Shown here: positions 1 to 16,298 of the stretch, one piece after another | Position numbering within the stretch: the first letter of the stretch is position 1 | Layout: every line of letters begins with the position of its first letter | Source: an uncultured delta proteobacterium | GTDB taxonomy: Bacteria; Desulfobacterota; Desulfobulbia; Desulfobulbales; Desulfocapsaceae | Assembly (NCBI GenBank): GCA_903875445.1 | Contig: CAIQWD010000089.1 | Span: 62,001 to 126,000, forward strand | Direction: 5' to 3' | DNA length: 64,000 nt | The notes under the pieces: generated by a model | Database searches by the model: none | Seen by the model: only the letters and a program-made list of their open reading frames with translations | Told to the model about the DNA's origin: nothing | Translations under genes and position numbers: made by a program

Positions 1-410
1 TCACCCTTCTCGGCACCGATATCTCGGATGCGGCTGTCTCCCAGGCGAGCTACGGAAAATACAACCGCTTCGAAATAGAACGAGGACTCGACAAAAAATA
101 CCTGCAAAAATTTTTCACACTCTTCGGCGACTCATGGAAGATCAAAGATGAAATCAGAGCGATGGTCAACTTTCGCAAACTCAATCTCATGCATCCTTTC
201 ACTGCCTTGGGAAAATTCGATATCATTTTCTGCCGAAACGTCGCCATCTACTTTACTCTTGAGGACAGGAAGAAGCTTTTCAATAAACTTGCCGACAGCC
301 TGGCTGATGATGGATATCTTGTCATCGGATCAACGGAGTCTCTTACCGGTGTATGTCCCAGGTTTATACCCAAACGACATCTCCGATCAATTTTTTACCA
401 AAAGCAATAA
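1..410 (+). CDS. cheR: CheR-type chemotaxis methyltransferase, C-terminal part (5' end outside window)
   Basis: An open frame enters from the left edge (first full codon at 3) and ends at 410. The readable 135 residues match the C-terminal half of CheR, which transfers methyl groups from S-adenosylmethionine to glutamates of chemoreceptors. Visible landmarks are GTDIS near the start, the NLMHPF stretch, the FDIIFCRNV strand typical of the SAM-binding fold, and the closing GxxxIGSTESL segment. The usual wording at the active region is FCRNVxIYF, and this is what is seen. The N-terminal all-helical domain is not in the window, so the start and total length are unknown. A response regulator gene follows 12 bases later on the same strand, so the two are probably co-transcribed. 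Confidence 0.88.
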   Translation, partial: TLLGTDISDAAVSQASYGKYNRFEIERGLDKKYLQKFFTLFGDSWKIKDEIRAMVNFRKLNLMHPFTALGKFDIIFCRNVAIYFTLEDRKKLFNKLADSLADDGYLVIGSTESLTGVCPRFIPKRHLRSIFYQKQ

Positions 411-422
411 AGAGGCATCCCC

Positions 423-992
423 ATGAAAAATCTATCTATTCTGGTTGTCGACGATGATCCCGTTATCAGGCGGCTTCTTGAGCAACGGTTAAAGAAAGAA
501 AATTACCAGGTCCAGGTGGCCGAAGACGGATATGTTGCGGAAAAAATGCTCGGGCAGCAGTTTTTTGATGTCGTTCTTACCGACCTGATGATGCCGGGCA
601 CGCTAGGTGGCATTGAAGTACTTGAAATAGCAAAAGATATTAACAGCAGAACAGAAGTGGTTCTGATCACTGCCCATTCGTCGGTGAATTCGGCTGTTGA
701 AGCGATGAAAAAAGGCGCTGTCGACTACCTGGAAAAACCGATTAATTTTGACGAACTTTTCCTGCGTCTCGACAAGATAGCCAATATGCAAACCATTCTG
801 CGCAGCGCCCAAGATTTACAAGTTGCCATGGATACAACGGAAAATGCAGCCTCGGAAACAATACAGAGCTTGGAAATGCAGGTTGCAAAAATGCGACAAA
901 CACTCGACGAGATCGAAACCATCCTCAGGGACGATCATCTTGCCGATTACAACAAGATTGCCAAGGCCCTGGATCTTGTCTGCGAGTCATAA
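423..992 (+). CDS. Response regulator, receiver plus C-terminal coiled coil
   Basis: A 189-residue protein. Residues 1-125 form a receiver domain with the acidic pair at D10-D12, a predicted phospho-acceptor D54 in VVLTDLMMPG, T83 in LITAHSS and K105 in YLEKP. All key residues are therefore present and it should be phosphorylated. Residues 130-189 contain no recognisable DNA-binding or enzymatic domain and look helical and heptad-like (SLEMQVAKMRQTLDEIETIL). Output is therefore probably by protein-protein contact. GAGG lies 7 bases before the ATG. The gene sits 12 bases behind the CheR end, which suggests a chemotaxis-like pathway. The cognate kinase is not evident; the kinases at 2491 and 6485 are candidates. 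Confidence 0.85.
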   Translation: MKNLSILVVDDDPVIRRLLEQRLKKENYQVQVAEDGYVAEKMLGQQFFDVVLTDLMMPGTLGGIEVLEIAKDINSRTEVVLITAHSSVNSAVEAMKKGAVDYLEKPINFDELFLRLDKIANMQTILRSAQDLQVAMDTTENAASETIQSLEMQVAKMRQTLDEIETILRDDHLADYNKIAKALDLVCES

Positions 993-3777: not shown

Positions 3778-5000
3778 TCCTCTTTTTGTCCTTCTGTTTC
3801 AGTCTGTAAATTTTGGAGGCAGAGTTCTTGCCATTCCCCCACCCTGTCCTGCAGATCAAGTCCTTCCAATATCCGTAAATTCAATTCCATTCTTCGTCCG
3901 ATAATCTCCTCTGGACGGTTTCGGTAATAGAGGACGTTGGCGGCATGAACTGCCAAAGCCGGAGTAAAGGAGGTTACCGGATAACTGTCCAGGGCCGATT
4001 GAAAACAGATGGCTTCGATAATCGGGGTGGAAAAGCCCCACAGGCCGATGAGATAGGCTCCAATCGCGCTTTGACTTGCACCGAAAATGACCTGCTCGGC
4101 ATCCTGCAGGGAAATATTTTTCTCCTGGGCGACAGCAATCGCCTGCTTATACTTTTCCGGAAGATAGGAAACGAGAACCAATTTTCCTATATCATGCAGG
4201 GTTCCGGCAAGAAAAGCATTGCCGATCAGATCATTGTCTTGACTTTCCCGGGCGGCAATCGCTTTAGCAATCTTGCCGACGGTGAGACTATGGAACCAGA
4301 GTGTTTCCAGTGACAGGATAGTTGTCGGAATCTTGATTTGGGTGAATATTTCCAGCCCGAGCACCAACACCTTTATGGTTTCCAACCCCAATAATTGTAC
4401 CGCCCGAGTGGGACTGTCGACTTTCGAATAGATACCGAAAAAGGCTGAGTTGACCAGCTGGAGAACCTTGGCGCTCATGGCCATGTCCTGCTCGATGATC
4501 GCCCCCAACATGTCTATATTGACATCGACCGAGTTAATGATCTTTCGCAGTTTGTCGTAGGTAGCCGGGAGACTCGGCAAGGTGCCGATCTGCGAGATGA
4601 GATCCTTCAGGCCGCCATCGGAAAGAATATTCTGCAGGGCCGCTGTCTGTATGAGGATGGATTTCAGAAGTTCAGGGTCGCAGGGTTTGGCTAAAAACTG
4701 ATGTACCACCCCGATGGTGCGCATAATGGACTGCTCATCGGCCTGGCCGGTCAGCATTATCCTGATGGTATGCGGATATTGCTGCTGTATCTTTTCAAGC
4801 AGTTCGGCCCCATCCATGCCGGGCATACGCATATCGGAGATAACTACATCGTAACGATCCTCGGCCATCAACTCCAGTGCTTCACGGCCGCCGCCGGCAA
4901 AGTGCATGTCATAGTGATTGCGTAAGGATCTCAGCATTCTCCGCAAGCCATCGAGAATATTCGGCTCGTCATCAACAAAGAGTACCCTTTTCTTGTCCAT
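3774..5000 (-). CDS. Response regulator with HDOD output domain
   Basis: A 408-residue protein. The receiver (1-125) has D10/D11, phospho-acceptor D56 in DVVISDMRMPG, T in MLTGQADEQS, and K in FLAKPCDPELL. From about residue 145 an HDOD domain follows (IGTLPSLPATYDKL; DMAMSAKVLQLVNSAFFG; LLGLETIKVLVLGLEIF), with an HDIGK segment in FLAGTLHDIGKLVLVSYLPE. HDOD domains are HD-superfamily relatives that generally lack the full metal-binding set and mostly act by protein interaction in signalling. The gene is the middle one of a three-gene minus-strand operon: 49 bases behind the degenerate HD-GYP regulator and overlapping the kinase. Both regulators may be served by the same kinase. Confidence 0.88.
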   Translation of the reverse strand: MDKKRVLFVDDEPNILDGLRRMLRSLRNHYDMHFAGGGREALELMAEDRYDVVISDMRMPGMDGAELLEKIQQQYPHTIRIMLTGQADEQSIMRTIGVVHQFLAKPCDPELLKSILIQTAALQNILSDGGLKDLISQIGTLPSLPATYDKLRKIINSVDVNIDMLGAIIEQDMAMSAKVLQLVNSAFFGIYSKVDSPTRAVQLLGLETIKVLVLGLEIFTQIKIPTTILSLETLWFHSLTVGKIAKAIAARESQDNDLIGNAFLAGTLHDIGKLVLVSYLPEKYKQAIAVAQEKNISLQDAEQVIFGASQSAIGAYLIGLWGFSTPIIEAICFQSALDSYPVTSFTPALAVHAANVLYYRNRPEEIIGRRMELNLRILEGLDLQDRVGEWQELCLQNLQTETEGQKEE

Positions 5001-5049
5001 TCATATCCCCTTGGTTCTGTGACACTTCGGCTTGGCGGAGAGCAGCATT

Positions 5050-6183
5050 TTATTGCTTCACTCTGACTAAAATCGGCTCGTGAATTCCAACCTGGCGGGA
5101 AAAACTCTTTAACCCTTGAAGGAGCGCCCACGTCACCTCCATGCCCTTCGGGGCAATCAACGCGCCATTCGAAGCCTTGATATCCTGTTCGACAACCATG
5201 CCTACCTCCATGTCCTTCAGCTCAATCGACAGGGTAAGTTCGTGTTCACTGTCGAGTTTCAGTTGGGATAGGATTGCTATCATTTCAGGATTATACGCAC
5301 CGGTTTGTTCCTCGAATTGGCGAAGAATCTGCGGACGTTTTATGCCACGATGGCGCAGGGTATCGAAGTCCCCGGCAAGCTTCAGAAGCTGTGCACCAAG
5401 GCAGATATCTTCGTTCAAATCCTGGAAGCCGGCGAATGCCTCGTACGGCAGAAATTGATGGGCAATAATTTTTGCTACTGTTTCAAGACGGGGAATTTTT
5501 TCGAGAAGTTTGGCGCCGACCAGCGGATGGTTTTTATAGATCGCCTCTTCATCCTGGTCGATGGCCTGGTTGGCAAATATTTTATTGAGAATATCAGTTG
5601 GTATTGTGATACAACCGATCTGCGACATAAGGGCGGCAATTTCAAATTGCCAGATATTGGTGAGCTGCAAAAGCCTGGCAAACTCAACAACCAAGTCCTT
5701 GATCCGTAAGGCACTACTGAAGGCAATAGGATTTGCCAAACTGAGCACCTCCGAGAGAACGGTGATACTCCCTTTCAAGGTTTTATTGAGCAGTTCCTTC
5801 TCGGCGGTGATAAGGCGGTATTGGCGCACGGCCAGGGCCAGAGCCATGGCCAAGGTAGGGGTCGGGCAGGGTTTATTTAAAAATCTGAAGATTGCACCTT
5901 TGTTTACCGCCTCAATGGCTGTTTCTTGATCGGCATTACCGGTGAGCATCAGACGGACGGTTTCGGGATAGATATCCTTGACCGTCGTCAGCAGCTGGAT
6001 TCCGTCCATGACCGGCATACGCATATCCGAGACAATGACCGCAAAAGGCCCGTCTTTTCTGAGAACATCTAAAGCCTCAGTGCCACCGCAAGCCGTAAAT
6101 ACCTCAAAACGCTTGCGTAATTCCCGTTTGATCGATTGAAGGATGTTTTCTTCATCATCAACGAAGAGGATTTTATCACTCAT
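5050..6183 (-). CDS. Response regulator with degenerate HD-GYP-like output domain
   Basis: A 377-residue protein. The receiver (1-120) has D9/D10, D53 in VIVSDMRMPVMDG, T81 in LMLTGNADQ and K104 in FLNKPCPTP, all intact. Residues about 135-320 align by eye with HD-GYP c-di-GMP phosphodiesterases: ALMSQIGCITIPTDIL in place of ALLHDIGKIGIPDxIL, then NHPLVGAKLLEKI, VAKIIAHQF and GDFDTL. The metal-binding HD pair has become S187-Q188, the lysine of HDIGK is C191, and the HHE signature reads H242-Q243-F244. Catalysis is therefore unlikely. A C-terminal extension (about 310-377) resembles a small beta domain. First gene of the operon with the HDOD regulator and the kinase. Confidence 0.8.
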   Translation of the reverse strand: MSDKILFVDDEENILQSIKRELRKRFEVFTACGGTEALDVLRKDGPFAVIVSDMRMPVMDGIQLLTTVKDIYPETVRLMLTGNADQETAIEAVNKGAIFRFLNKPCPTPTLAMALALAVRQYRLITAEKELLNKTLKGSITVLSEVLSLANPIAFSSALRIKDLVVEFARLLQLTNIWQFEIAALMSQIGCITIPTDILNKIFANQAIDQDEEAIYKNHPLVGAKLLEKIPRLETVAKIIAHQFLPYEAFAGFQDLNEDICLGAQLLKLAGDFDTLRHRGIKRPQILRQFEEQTGAYNPEMIAILSQLKLDSEHELTLSIELKDMEVGMVVEQDIKASNGALIAPKGMEVTWALLQGLKSFSRQVGIHEPILVRVKQ

Positions 6184-6394
6184 CTTTATCCATTATCGGT
6201 TGAAGAAAGAGGATGGTATTTTGAACAGCAAAATGCCTTCATCAAAGTATCTTAATTTTTATGATAATAGTCAAATTTCTTGAGACTTTTTTCTTGTCGA
6301 GAGAAATTTAAACCCTCAAACATCGGCAGCTTCGCCGCAAGGATGATCAATGACAGTGCGGCTGGTATTTTACGACTTTTGTATAAAATAGTTC

Positions 6395-10958: not shown

Positions 10959-11001
10959 AAAAGATGATGAAAACCTCTTTTCTCGATAGTTGCCCGCAGA
11001 A

Positions 11002-12099
11002 ATGGCCATGGCTGTAATACCGACTCAACAAATAGCCGTCACGAAGGAATCGAATCGTAACTCCTTTCACGGCATGATCGGCTCGACCGCGCTCATGCAA
11101 CAGCTCTTCGACATGATCACTCGGGTGGCCGATGACGATGTCTCAACAGTCCTTATCCGCGGCGAATCCGGTACGGGCAAGGAGATGGTAGCAAAAGCCA
11201 TACACGCCGAGAGCAGGCGGAGGGATAAAAATTTTGTGCCCGTCAATTGTGCGGCTATCCCCGATGACCTCCTGGAAAGTGAATTATTCGGGTACACCAA
11301 AGGTGCGTTCACCGGGGCAACGGGCAATAAAATCGGCCGGATCCAATATGCCGATCAGGGTACCCTTTTTCTCGATGAAATAGGTGACATGAAGGCATCT
11401 TTGCAAGCCAAATTGTTGCGGGTTTTACAGGAAAAAGAATTCGAACCGGTCGGTGCCTTGAAATCGATCCCGGTAAACACCCGAGTACTCGCGGCTACGC
11501 ATTGTGATCTGGAAAAACTGGTCGGCGAAGGAAAATTCCGAGAGGATCTTTATTACCGTCTCAGCGTTATCCCGCTGAATATCCCGGCATTGAAAGAAAG
11601 AATCGCCGATATACCTCTTCTCATCGATACCTTTCTGGAAAAATATACCCGTCAAAGGGGCCGAGAACCGTTTGCCTTGTCGCCACGGGCAATGGCTGCC
11701 ATTACCCACTACGAATGGCGTGGCAATGTCAGAGAACTGGAAAACCTCATCCAACACATGAGCATTCTCTACAGCGGTAAAACCTTACAACTGGAGGATC
11801 TTCCGGAAAAATTTCATGATGTTATCCTCCCTGCCGAAGATACAACCGAAGATGAACAAAAAGCTGCTTCTCCTCCGCCACAAGAGGGTATGCAAAGGTC
11901 TCCACAGGCACTTGCTTGGGAGAATGGCCGGATCGATTTTAATGAGTTAATCAATGATTTCGAAACGCAACTCATTGTCCAGGCGATGAAACTGACGGAA
12001 GGCAATAAAAAAGAAGCCGCTCGTCTCCTTAACCTGAAGCGAACGACCCTTCTTGAAAAAATCAAAAAGAAGGATATCGAAGGATTATGGCAGAAATAA
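11002..12099 (+). CDS. Sigma54-dependent transcriptional activator without receiver domain
   Basis: About 365 residues. A short N-terminus (about 20 residues) leads straight into the AAA+ domain: Walker A GESGTGKE, the sigma54-contacting loop GAFTGA, Walker [11 protein letters not shown], and the arginine region ending [15 protein letters not shown] linker with acidic and proline stretches is followed by a Fis-type helix-turn-helix ([20 protein letters not shown]). It should remodel sigma54 RNA polymerase at -24/-12 promoters. Lacking a sensor domain, its activity may depend on expression level or a partner. A sigma54-type promoter lies in front of the flagellar cluster (16,566), so a FlrA/FleQ-like role is plausible but unproven. 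A TTG at 10990 is an alternative start. Confidence 0.85.
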
Positions 12100-12129: not shown

Positions 12130-14631
12130 TCAGGCGGCAAGCTTCAAGAGATTATTGGTAACATTTTCCTCAATGTCTGCCTTCGTGGCCGGCGTAAGGA
12201 GGATATCTCTTATTCCGTACTTCACAGCCTTGATTACTTTTGTTCTGGTCCAGCCCGGCCCGGCGGCAATCAGCGGTAAGGAACAAGAAGCACTGATTTT
12301 TATTGCGGCACCAAAGGCCTGCTCATTCACATCCTGCATCACCAGATAAATCGCCTTTAGTCCGCCGGGGATATAGTTGTGTACATTATCCTTGAAAGAC
12401 AAGGACTTGACGACAAAATCCATTCCTCCAAGCACAGCGGCGATTTTTGCCGTTTCCGCTTCGTCGTCACCAATCAGCAGGATATCAAGGGCTGCATCCG
12501 CCGCCCCTCCGACTGACTGCCGAATTGCCGATTGCTCTCTTTCCTCAACCTTGGCGATCTCTTCGTCGGCTGCCATGAGACCTTCCAACTCAAGAAGGCT
12601 CAAGGGGAATACAAGATGCACCTTGCCGAAAACACCCTCTCCGATGGCCAGATCCGAGGTACTTACGTAATAGTAACCGTTGGCAAAGGGATCGTCCGAA
12701 TCGGTTGCAACCTTCATCGGCACAACCTGCTGCAGCTCGGTTTTTACAAAGCGAATCCTTTTCGTGTATTGTTCTTCGAAAATGGCAGTGTATACCCCGG
12801 TGATAATGTTGGCAATCTCGCCGTAGGCATCCTTGGTGTCCTCGCCGAAAACTTCATCGCTTACAACCGACTCAAGCTCTTGGGAGGGCAGCATGATCAA
12901 CACCCCGCCGACGCGTATGGCATCCCGGAGATTAACAACCAGATAGCTCTTACCCTCCAAGTCACCCACTACATCCATATGGGCGATTACCTGCTTTCCT
13001 GACACCTCTTCATAAAAAAAACTCTCCTTGCCGACAACTCTATTGTGCAGATTGCTGAGCTGCACCTCGGCACCAAGAAGTGCACCTACTTCCCCCGCCA
13101 CCTTATCTCGACAAGAGGAAAGAAGTTTATCCACCAGTTTTTTCTGTTTTTCCGCAGCTTCCTTGGCCTGGGATGGATTTTTTTTATTTTTTTCCGCCAG
13201 AGAGACGATTTGCTCTCCTTCACCTTCTGTTTCTCTGGGCGCCTGTTGCAGCGCTGTTGATGCAAGAGGAGGCTGTTCCTTGCTCACCGGTGCAGCTTCT
13301 TCCACCGGTTCGCTGTCAAGCTGCAGCAGTTGCGCGGGGAAAAGCATATGAACGGAGCCCAGCTGTTTGCCGGTAACCAGCAACTGCAGACTGTGACGAT
13401 AATAGGCTTGGTTCGGTATCGGTTCGTCAGAGTCAGTGACTACCTTCTGAGGGACAACCTCCAAAAGTGCCTTCTTAATGAATCTGAGCTTTTCCGTGTA
13501 TTGTTCTTCGAATATTTTTGTATATACTCCGGAAACAATATTCACCACCTCGCCGAAAGCATCACGAACGTCATCGCTGAAGTCCTCTTCACTTATGACA
13601 TTTACGAGTTCCGACGGCGGCAGCATGATGAGTACGCCACCAAGATGGATAGCATCCTTAATTCCGAGAGAAAAGTAGCAAGTATCCCGGCGTTCTCCGA
13701 CGACCTCCATGTTTGTCAGGATCTGTTTGCCGGCCACTTGTTCGGAAAAGAAATCTTCCTTGCTGATTATTTGATTTTCAAGGCCATCGAAGGTGATGTC
13801 GACACCCAGAAGAGCACTGACTTCTTCAGTAAGCTTCTGCCGGCAATCGGCAAGAAGGCGATCAATTTTCTTTTTCTGTTTTTCCGGATTAACCTTCGAT
13901 TTTTGTTCTTTCTTTTGCTCCTGAACAGCGCCCTCTTCTTGGTTCGTAGCGGTATCCGCTTGGGTCACAATCTGTGTGCCGTTCGGTGGTGGCGGTGGAT
14001 TTTTTGCTGCTTCGGATTGTTGCAGCGGCGGTTCCGGAACTGGGGCAGGAGCAGCAGCCTCTTCCTCTAGCTCGAAGGTCAAGGCGGGAAAAAGAATAAC
14101 CAATTCTCCCATCTGCCGGCCGTCCATGAGCATGGCACTCGACATGAAGTAGAAGGTCTGATTGGCTACAGGATCATCGGAATCGATAACCGCCTTTGCG
14201 GGGACAAGAATTTCCTGCTCCTTACGGACAAAACGGCAGGTTTTCGGGTACATTTCCTCAAAAGCCTTGGTGATGGAGCCGGCGATAATATTGGCTATCT
14301 CGCCATACGAGTCCTCGACTTCCTCCCGGTACTCTTCCCTGCCGATAACTTCTTGCAACTCCTGGTCCGGCAACATGATAAGGGTGCCCCCCAAACGGAT
14401 CGCATCCTTAATACCGATCAGCAAGCAGCCTTTGCCGCTAATATCACCAGTAATGTCGAGACGGGCACAAATCTGCTTTCCCGGCAACCGCTCAAAGGCA
14501 TCAGCCTTGCTGATAAGTTCCCTACTGCCCGTGGTAACAGAAAAATTGCTTCCAAGAAGGTTTCCTACCTCATCTTGAATCCTGGCCTCAACAGCTTCCA
14601 GTATCTTGTCAATTCGTTTTCGCTGATCCAT
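12130..14631 (-). CDS. Triple CheC/CheX-like module protein with C-terminal degenerate receiver
   Basis: About 833 residues. Three homologous modules (about 5-190, 255-440 and 495-680) each begin with a helix (KxxDxLLxxCRxKxxxEVxxLLG), contain IKDAIxLGGxLIMLP, and carry DxxGExxNIxxG. This gives Glu/Asn pairs at E111/N114, E361/N364 and E605/N608, the arrangement used by CheC/CheX/FliY phosphatases to dephosphorylate CheY-P. Charged, proline-rich linkers separate the modules. Residues about 714-833 resemble a receiver (DILLIGDDEAET, YLVMQDVNE), but the Thr strand reads LPLIAAGPG and the Lys loop LLTPATK, so phosphorylation is doubtful. The ATG at 14631 is preferred over a GTG at 14664 without a ribosome site. 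It lies behind two cheX genes and cheY on the same strand. Confidence 0.8.
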   Translation of the reverse strand: MDQRKRIDKILEAVEARIQDEVGNLLGSNFSVTTGSRELISKADAFERLPGKQICARLDITGDISGKGCLLIGIKDAIRLGGTLIMLPDQELQEVIGREEYREEVEDSYGEIANIIAGSITKAFEEMYPKTCRFVRKEQEILVPAKAVIDSDDPVANQTFYFMSSAMLMDGRQMGELVILFPALTFELEEEAAAPAPVPEPPLQQSEAAKNPPPPPNGTQIVTQADTATNQEEGAVQEQKKEQKSKVNPEKQKKKIDRLLADCRQKLTEEVSALLGVDITFDGLENQIISKEDFFSEQVAGKQILTNMEVVGERRDTCYFSLGIKDAIHLGGVLIMLPPSELVNVISEEDFSDDVRDAFGEVVNIVSGVYTKIFEEQYTEKLRFIKKALLEVVPQKVVTDSDEPIPNQAYYRHSLQLLVTGKQLGSVHMLFPAQLLQLDSEPVEEAAPVSKEQPPLASTALQQAPRETEGEGEQIVSLAEKNKKNPSQAKEAAEKQKKLVDKLLSSCRDKVAGEVGALLGAEVQLSNLHNRVVGKESFFYEEVSGKQVIAHMDVVGDLEGKSYLVVNLRDAIRVGGVLIMLPSQELESVVSDEVFGEDTKDAYGEIANIITGVYTAIFEEQYTKRIRFVKTELQQVVPMKVATDSDDPFANGYYYVSTSDLAIGEGVFGKVHLVFPLSLLELEGLMAADEEIAKVEEREQSAIRQSVGGAADAALDILLIGDDEAETAKIAAVLGGMDFVVKSLSFKDNVHNYIPGGLKAIYLVMQDVNEQAFGAAIKISASCSLPLIAAGPGWTRTKVIKAVKYGIRDILLTPATKADIEENVTNNLLKLAA

Positions 14632-15827: not shown

Positions 15828-16199
15828 TTAAAGCAGCGGTCCAAGTATTTCATTTACCTTGTCTGGAGTAAAAGGTTTTTTTATCGATCCGACAGCACCG
15901 AGAGATTTGGCTTCGCCGATGATATCATCGCCTGTTTCCGTGGAAATCATTAAGACCGGAATATCTTTTATAGCAGCACGGCTGGCTTTCTCTCTGAGAA
16001 AAGAAATCCCATCCATATTGGGCATGTTGATGTCGCTGAGGACGATGTCGACTTTTTTGCTCTCCAGAATCTCCAGGGCTTCCAAGCCGTCGGCGGCTTC
16101 ATATATGTTTTCAAAATCAATCCCGGCCTGGCGCAGTGAACGTCCGATGATCTTTCTCATGGTGCTTGAATCGTCTACTAGCAGTACGTTTTTTCCCAT
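15828..16199 (-). CDS. cheY: CheY-type single-domain response regulator
   Basis: A 123-residue receiver only. It has the acidic pair D9/D10 in LLVDDSSTMRKII, phospho-acceptor D56 in DIVLSDINMPNMDG, T in VLMISTETG, and K in IKKPFTPDKV. Such proteins carry the phosphate signal to the flagellar switch (FliM/FliN). The start at 16199 is supported by AGGAGAG just upstream; an in-frame extension to 16244 lacks homology. It is the first gene of the putative cheY-cheX-cheX-triple-module operon, so kinase target and phosphatases are encoded together. A possible sigma28 promoter lies at 16,299-16,326. Confidence 0.88.
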   Translation of the reverse strand: MGKNVLLVDDSSTMRKIIGRSLRQAGIDFENIYEAADGLEALEILESKKVDIVLSDINMPNMDGISFLREKASRAAIKDIPVLMISTETGDDIIGEAKSLGAVGSIKKPFTPDKVNEILGPLL

Positions 16200-16298
16200 T
16201 ACTCTCTCCTGTATTAAGTGCCGGCGTCGTCCTTTAAGCCACACCTGAAGTAGCGTGAGGTAACACCTCCGTTCCTTATAACAATAACCTCAAAACAA

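Follow-up and report, generated by a model that had tools for sequence, protein, structure and literature searches.

A flagellar-locus protein of Desulfocapsaceae with three CheC/FliY-type modules and a C-terminal pseudo-receiver

In the usual picture, a CheY-P phosphatase is an enzyme with one head that is tuned by its location and its partners. CheC is a single protein that works with CheD (PDB entry 2f9z is the CheC–CheD complex), and CheX contacts CheY around the CheY acceptor site. Larger arrangements have been described: according to the passages that concern them, Halobacterium CheC3 has two CheC domains in one protein (PMC3579733), and CheA–CheC/CheX fusions occur in Leptospirae (PMC10782961). 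Among receiver-like domains, the pseudo-receiver of FrzS binds SgmX via α3–β4–α4, as related in a 2025 review that calls the switching of bacterial pseudo-receivers a mystery (PMC12632262).

The protein described here is encoded in a 64,000-nucleotide stretch, referred to as the window, of a Desulfocapsaceae genome. It combines three modules of the CheC/CheX superfamily with a degenerate receiver. The reading favoured, with a probability of about 0.6, is that of a lineage-specific, multi-headed CheC/FliY-type CheY-P phosphatase docked by its pseudo-receiver.

Domain organization

The open reading frame begins with an ATG codon and encodes 833 residues, divided into modules M1, M2 and M3, the linkers that follow them and a receiver-like domain (Table 1). 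M1, M2 and M3 are pairwise 41–49% identical over about 190 residues (blastp E values of 1e-51 to 2e-72), a similarity far above chance, and the D-x3-E-x2-N motif is intact in all three; the first-pass annotation had recognized both the homology and the motif. The DNA of the modules is only 50–57% identical, which marks their multiplication as old and not as an assembly artefact. Linkers 1 and 2 are charged and contain proline, in keeping with the first annotation, and proline is abundant in linker 1; linker 3 is also disordered, at least in part, but lacks proline. The AlphaFold2 model of the full-length protein, built from 18 sequences (pLDDT 80.1, pTM 0.33), depicts well-formed separate domains with no defined mutual arrangement.

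Table 1 Features of the locus, in window coordinates
Feature	Coordinates	Strand	Basis
Sigma-54 regulator, convergent	10990..12099	+	Pfam
833-aa protein, three CheC/FliY-type modules and C-terminal pseudo-receiver	12130..14631	-	ORF, blastp, model
C-terminal Ala-Ala (..LKLAA-COOH), ssrA-like	12133..12138	-	Sequence
Pseudo-receiver, residues 716–833 (118 aa), conserved strip WTRTKVIKAVKYGIRDILLTPA	12133..12486	-	Fold, alignment
Linker 3, residues about 688–712, partly disordered, no Pro	12487..12573	-	Model
Module M3, residues 488–686	12574..13170	-	AlphaFold2 model, structural matches
M3 motif DAYGEIANIITG, D601 E605 N608	12796..12831	-	Sequence
Linker 2, residues about 440–485, 5 Pro/46, charged, disordered	13171..13311	-	pLDDT < 50
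Module M2, residues 247–440, added middle module	13312..13893	-	Clusters with C-terminal modules
M2 motif DAFGEVVNIVSG, D357 E361 N364	13528..13563	-	Sequence
Linker 1, residues 191–246, 10 Pro/56, charged, disordered	13894..14061	-	pLDDT < 50
Module M1, residues 1–190	14062..14631	-	Clusters with N-terminal modules of relatives
M1 motif DSYGEIANIIAG, D107 E111 N114	14278..14313	-	Sequence
cheX, 156 aa	14741..15211	-	PF13690, 79.3 bits
cheX, 159 aa	15264..15743	-	PF13690, 84.4 bits
cheY, opens the run; Asp, Thr/Ser and Lys as usual	15828..16244	-	Pfam, alignment
Canonical FliM and FliN, two separate genes, same genome	30767..32131	+	Pfam

Fold and family placement of the modules

M3 together with the receiver was modelled with AlphaFold2 from 58 sequences (pLDDT 92.4, pTM 0.63). 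The best Foldseek match of this model is FliY of T. maritima (E = 1.8e-11), followed by CheC (E = 1.2e-9) and then by FliM middle domains; the best CheX reaches E = 6.6e-7, its lower rank owing in part to its being shorter. Re-scoring of Foldseek's own match list with VIA-align 2 gave M3 a Z score of 20.7 with the FliM middle domain, 20.1 with FliY (181 aligned residues) and 17.2 with CheC (187 aligned residues). The result that the first-pass annotation had named as a refutation, modules without the CheC/CheX/FliY fold, did not arise. Their first label, CheC/CheX-like, holds at the level of the superfamily; within it CheX looks more distant from the modelled fold than FliY, CheC or the FliM middle domain.

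The best-scoring Pfam family of the full protein is CheX (PF13690; 57.1 bits, cut-off 27); CheC scores 25.9 bits (cut-off 22). The single modules lie under the CheX cut-off of 27 bits (M1 24.9, M2 22.6 and M3 19.1). Plain CheX was rejected as the best label, since FliY, CheC and FliM outrank it by fold and each module exceeds it in length; CheX proper is a dimer of single domains of about 150 residues, unlike the three-module chain here with about 190 per module. No FliN domain (PF01052) was matched in the 833-residue protein up to E = 1.

When a profile built from 62 modules is aligned with T. maritima CheC, the match is weak (E = 0.0083) and E-x2-N falls on REIGNI, the second active site of CheC. 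In the same weak alignment (E = 0.0083) the first site is not kept, having K at the E position and no Asn. Read in this way, each module appears to retain just one active site, against two in CheC. The conserved N-terminal sequence EEVGALLG was considered as a first active site and rejected, because the profile alignment to CheC puts that site elsewhere. E21-x2-N24, present in the first helix of M1 alone, is a chance occurrence, the column holding N in 2 of 172 modules.

Genomic context and distribution

The genes for CheY, two CheX proteins and the 833-residue protein form a single minus-strand run that ends with the last of these, and Pfam matches upstream in the run bear out the position behind cheY and two cheX genes given in the first-pass annotation. 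A TPR gene and flgB-flgC-fliE-fliF-fliG diverge from the run. Neighbourhoods were counted for 78 relatives found on genome contigs, each count being limited by flank length. Among those with more than 3.5 kb upstream, cheY and at least one cheX precede the gene in 54 of 56 and two cheX genes in 49 of 56; neither cheY nor cheX lies beside the relatives L118 and L125. Divergent flgB/flgC are present in 39 of 43 relatives with more than 8 kb upstream (the exceptions are L129, L147, L149 and L156), and the convergent regulator in 64 of 70 with more than 1.5 kb downstream. The order cheY-cheX-cheX-(two modules)-regulator also occurs in Pelovirga (L156) and Geopsychrobacter (L155), which lie outside the order to which the window belongs.

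The two CheX proteins of the operon could already provide phosphatase. No CheZ match was found in the genome, and Pfam detected no CheX/CheC-family member outside the operon; the Pfam models score single modules poorly and did not detect M3, which leaves room for divergent members to be overlooked. The operon CheY has at least 45 further receiver domains as matches at E ≤ 1e-8 (best 42% identity, 150 of 206 candidates scored), so it is not the sole possible substrate. The earlier tally of five phosphatase-like modules for one CheY is right as an operon total, but 'one CheY' is too narrow.

CheW domains also occur on six other contigs, a second reason why 'one CheY' is too narrow. A cluster at the left edge of the window (1–992, together with L197, 4954–10992) carries genes for CheW, CheB, CheR and a CheA that ends in a receiver domain, and includes a 189-residue response regulator at 423–992. 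Two further proteins, of 521 and 511 residues (L198, 7264–8829, minus strand; L199, 2262–3797, plus strand), have three CheW domains each and no further Pfam match at E ≤ 1e-6. Multiplied domains are a recurring feature of the chemosensory parts of this genome.

A search for the architecture in other genomes, as proposed in the first-pass annotation, showed that 117 of the order's 257 genomes have relatives (E ≤ 1e-8), as do 24 of 395 sampled genomes of the phylum (E ≤ 1e-10), including Desulfopila, Desulforhopalus, Desulfocapsa, Desulfofustis, Desulfogranum and others; the nearest named relatives in a tree of 117 modules are Desulfocapsaceae. Restriction to this one genome was rejected, given relatives across order and phylum, and the protein is a family trait, with none or one to three modules in its relatives. 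Its presence tracks FliG within the family of the window: among 93 genomes, the two occur together in 71 and are both absent from 16, while 4 have the protein only and 2 FliG only (Fisher p = 1.8e-12, shared descent ignored); four of the six discordant genomes are less than 90% complete, G007 and G142 being the other two. Order-wide, 77 genomes have FliG and lack the protein, so flagella do not require it.

Motif conservation and the Ala-Ala end

Among 76 proteins of the order, the glutamate of the motif is kept in 162 of 163 modules and the asparagine in 154 of 163. The profile behind these counts spans the motif itself; it is still fairer than the count over 79 contig-search loci, in which asparagine occupies 171 of 172 modules, a biased figure because the loci were located with patterns containing the motif or the receiver strip. 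The nine asparagine exceptions sit in six proteins (G025, G056, G086, G091, G094 and G177), and three of the four two-module proteins among them are decayed in both copies. In a further relative, G023 (L030, 8157–8927, minus strand), a 256-residue protein with a shortened N-terminal part keeps the pseudo-receiver and has no recognizable module; its genome of 2.1 Mb still has FliG. Since the six decayed relatives and G023 keep the receiver, the protein works without catalysis in some lineages.

These seven relatives count in favour of a structural or scaffold protein, in which modules resembling the middle domain of FliM or FliY would bind motor or CheY surfaces and catalysis would be secondary. 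The FliM middle domain, tied with FliY, is the top structural match (Z 20.7), and FliM uses the same fold as a structural part, which counts against a catalytic reading; the divergent flagellar genes beside it, present in 39 of the 43 loci whose flank is long enough, also fit. However, the near-invariance of E-x2-N elsewhere would be needless for a scaffold, and canonical FliM and FliN are encoded separately; a scaffold is an unlikely account.

A second conserved feature is the C-terminus. An Ala-Ala end occurs in 68 of 77 contig-search relatives with an intact C-terminus, in 67 of the 76 proteins of the order set and in 1 of 618 proteins from 14 neighbouring gene families. The window protein ends in LAA, and the genome's own tmRNA tag is ADDYNYAVAA, ending in AVAA (ARAGORN; a second, starred call with another tag overlaps). 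The Ala-Ala end is missing from 6 of 7 motif-lost or module-less proteins versus 3 of 69 others (p = 2.6e-6, shared descent ignored; the motif-lost proteins are related, G025 and G177 belonging to one genus and G056, G086, G091 and G094 to another). This hints that ssrA-type protease turnover may matter when the heads are active.

Module number and its history

The 76 proteins of the order comprise 20 complete proteins with three modules, 44 with two, 7 with one and 1 with none, together with 4 incomplete ones; the set was drawn from 76 of the 117 positive genomes and partly picked for length (three-module proteins), so these counts are no frequencies. The 78 contig-search proteins divide into 17 with three modules, 54 with two and 1 with one, all complete, and 6 that are incomplete. 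In the genus of the window, three modules are found in 12 of 15 genomes, one of the 12 being cut at a contig end; the remainder are a contig-end fragment, a genome 56% complete and one that also lacks FliG.

Trees were built from thinned sets, with 117 of the 172 modules in the first and 69 in the second. In the 69-module tree the middle module of the window groups with C-terminal modules (a set of 22 rows, support 100/93), and the middle modules of L105 (100/99) and L112 (100/92) are each sister to the N-terminal one; that of L102 likewise goes with the N-terminal module (95/93 in the 117-module tree, 80/70 in the 69-module tree). Two simpler histories were rejected. A single ancestral middle module, taken as a clade of all nine in the 69-module tree, fails the AU test at p = 1.4e-46, and a single ancestral two-module duplication, taken as one clade of all N-terminal modules, fails at p = 1.7e-4, a test that included the middle modules of L102, L105 and L112, assigned after the first tree.

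By these trees, the middle module has been gained at least twice, by copying of the C-terminal module in the lineage of the window and of the N-terminal module elsewhere. Rejection of the N-terminal clade suggests either more than one origin of the two-module state or homogenization of the modules by gene conversion; conversion between modules could mimic independent duplication. Rooting is approximate, the eight single-module outgroup rows not falling on one side of a branch. In L110, a two-module relative (4296–6299) is immediately preceded by a separate 151-residue open reading frame (3789–4244) that corresponds to the greater part of a module; the gene is split, the sequence contains an error, or a gain is under way.

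A buffer or sink, in which several weakly binding heads titrate CheY-P or CheY instead of hydrolysing it quickly, would also fit the number of heads next to a single co-encoded CheY and their repeated gain. Retention of the catalytic asparagine in 154 of 163 modules speaks against such titration, which we regard as very improbable.

The pseudo-receiver

The C-terminal domain has the receiver fold: receiver chains match it at Z 15–17 over 111–122 residues (VIA-align 2). PF00072 gave no match for the window domain and matched 4 of 15 relatives, with a best E value of 0.0012; PleD is the sole sequence match among solved structures (E = 0.015). As the first-pass annotation noted, the Thr and Lys of a working receiver are gone, the window domain having G and T in their places. 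Over 79 sequences, the position of Lys109 (CheY numbering) holds T in 75 and K in none, and the Thr87 position is filled by G in 72 sequences, by A in 6 and by S in 1. Beyond what had been noted, the acceptor Asp is unconserved too. The residue at its position in the window depends on register, being Met without a gap (counted from the end of β3) and Asp with a three-residue gap; the gapped column, itself of uncertain register, contains E in 40, D in 18, N in 7 and others in the rest of the 79 sequences, and so mixed a column means that no acceptor Asp is conserved. A phosphorylatable receiver was rejected because Lys is found in 0 of 79, the Thr position is G or A in 78 of 79 and the acceptor varies.

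The phylum search added 19 sequences, of which 6, every one from a one-module protein, retain the Lys; this suggests stepwise decay. These six relatives (L168–L173) belong to the phylum families f39 and f115, and beside them, as far as the flank reaches, lies a CheY-like open reading frame or a short one with a CheX-like motif.

Conservation within the domain is lopsided. Over 71 of the 79 rows (8 dropped), mean entropy is low in the β4–α4 loop (0.66 bits), α4 (0.56 bits) and β5 (0.34 bits) and high in α1 (2.38 bits) and α5 (1.97 bits), so that β4–α4–β5 is the best-conserved part. Taken whole, however, the pseudo-receiver varies far more than the CheY of the same loci (mean 1.39 versus 0.37 bits), and α4 of that CheY is likewise conserved (0.12 bits). 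We infer a docking role for the conserved side.

Another use of this domain would be self-gating, the pseudo-receiver mimicking CheY and inhibiting or ordering the heads until a partner pulls it away. Its CheY fold, its conserved α4 side and its fusion, in 75 of 76 relatives (recovered with a profile that joins module and receiver), to one or more modules are consistent with such a lid. Yet a single receiver accompanies any number of heads from one to three, which does not fit a one-to-one lid, and the acceptor-site region that CheX contacts on CheY is not kept here. Nor is any domain packing confident in the full-length model with its disordered linkers: its pTM of 0.33 lends no support to a fixed gated assembly, although a transient one could still form. 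Self-gating therefore appears rather improbable.

Proposed mechanism

Phosphatase activity is what the motif and the modelled fold would predict for the modules. This reading draws on homology, fold, a motif kept as the modules diverge, the operon setting, co-occurrence with FliG in the family, the lack of CheZ and of further CheC/CheX-family matches within the reach of the Pfam models, repeated module gain and the lopsided conservation of the pseudo-receiver. Weighing against it are the structural use of the fold in FliM, the lone CheC active site, the seven relatives with a lost motif or no module, the two CheX proteins already in the operon, single-module scores under the Pfam cut-off, the L118 and L125 loci, the 77 genomes with FliG alone and the low overall conservation of the pseudo-receiver. 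In a multi-headed phosphatase, each module would retain one CheC-type active site (E-x2-N), and the disordered linkers would let each head bind and dephosphorylate CheY-P independently. Local phosphatase capacity would be raised for the co-encoded flagellar CheY, the presumed substrate, with multivalency as the putative benefit. The pseudo-receiver would stay unphosphorylated and dock a partner, perhaps the motor, the pole or another Che protein, through its α3–β4–α4–β5 side. More speculatively, the conserved Ala-Ala end might let ClpXP limit the amount of protein. A fuller version for the flagellated bacteria of the order, in which CheY-P removal is tuned both by head number, raised repeatedly from different parent modules, and by a ClpXP-set amount and the dead receiver serves as a docking handle, is offered tentatively and is unlikely. 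The first-pass annotation had envisaged a three-headed phosphatase that could bind several CheY-P at once or gate its heads by the pseudo-receiver; its picture is correct in anatomy and conjectural in mechanism, so that the interpretation as a whole is partly supported.

With one, two or three heads on the same scaffold, gained repeatedly, the family is a natural series in which to test how phosphatase valency affects flagellar signalling. The family also places a pseudo-receiver with one conserved side in a defined operon. The conservation of the Ala-Ala tail and its link to motif decay are new here.

Comparison with known systems

In the literature covered, which takes in few subscription papers, passages describing several CheC modules, or CheC with a receiver, in the present arrangement were not found, the nearest being CheC3 and the CheA fusions. 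The passages on Geobacter, Pelobacter, Campylobacterota, Desulfuromonas and CheA architectures do not contain it; CheC and CheX have no match in the main text of the pseudo-receiver review (PMC12632262), and neither was found in the portions of PMC4395418 on aspartate-less receivers.

The first-pass annotation called CheX and CheC normally single proteins. That is the usual picture, from which FliY and, by the passages on them, CheC3 and the CheA–CheC/CheX fusions depart. CheC3 and the Leptospirae CheA fusions are likewise multi-domain, but the passages on them mention neither three heads nor a pseudo-receiver. CheX is the best Pfam family here; the operon CheX proteins have 156 and 159 residues and the modules about 190. 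CheC (T. maritima, 1xkr) shares the fold (Z 17.2) and the second active site, whereas its first-site motif is not kept here.

Receiver folds lacking phosphotransfer residues, as here, are described in FrzS and PleD, in the text available without mention of CheC-type modules, and the α3–β4–α4 surface reported for FrzS is the region conserved in this pseudo-receiver. The Ala-Ala end resembles an ssrA/ClpXP tag, and the genome's own tmRNA tag also ends in Ala-Ala. FliY (T. maritima, 4hyn), the best Foldseek match, shares the module fold, E-x2-N and the link to flagella. FliY is, by its PDB entry name, a CheC/FliN fusion; the protein described here, in contrast, has several modules, a pseudo-receiver and no FliN domain, with FliN and FliM encoded by separate genes.
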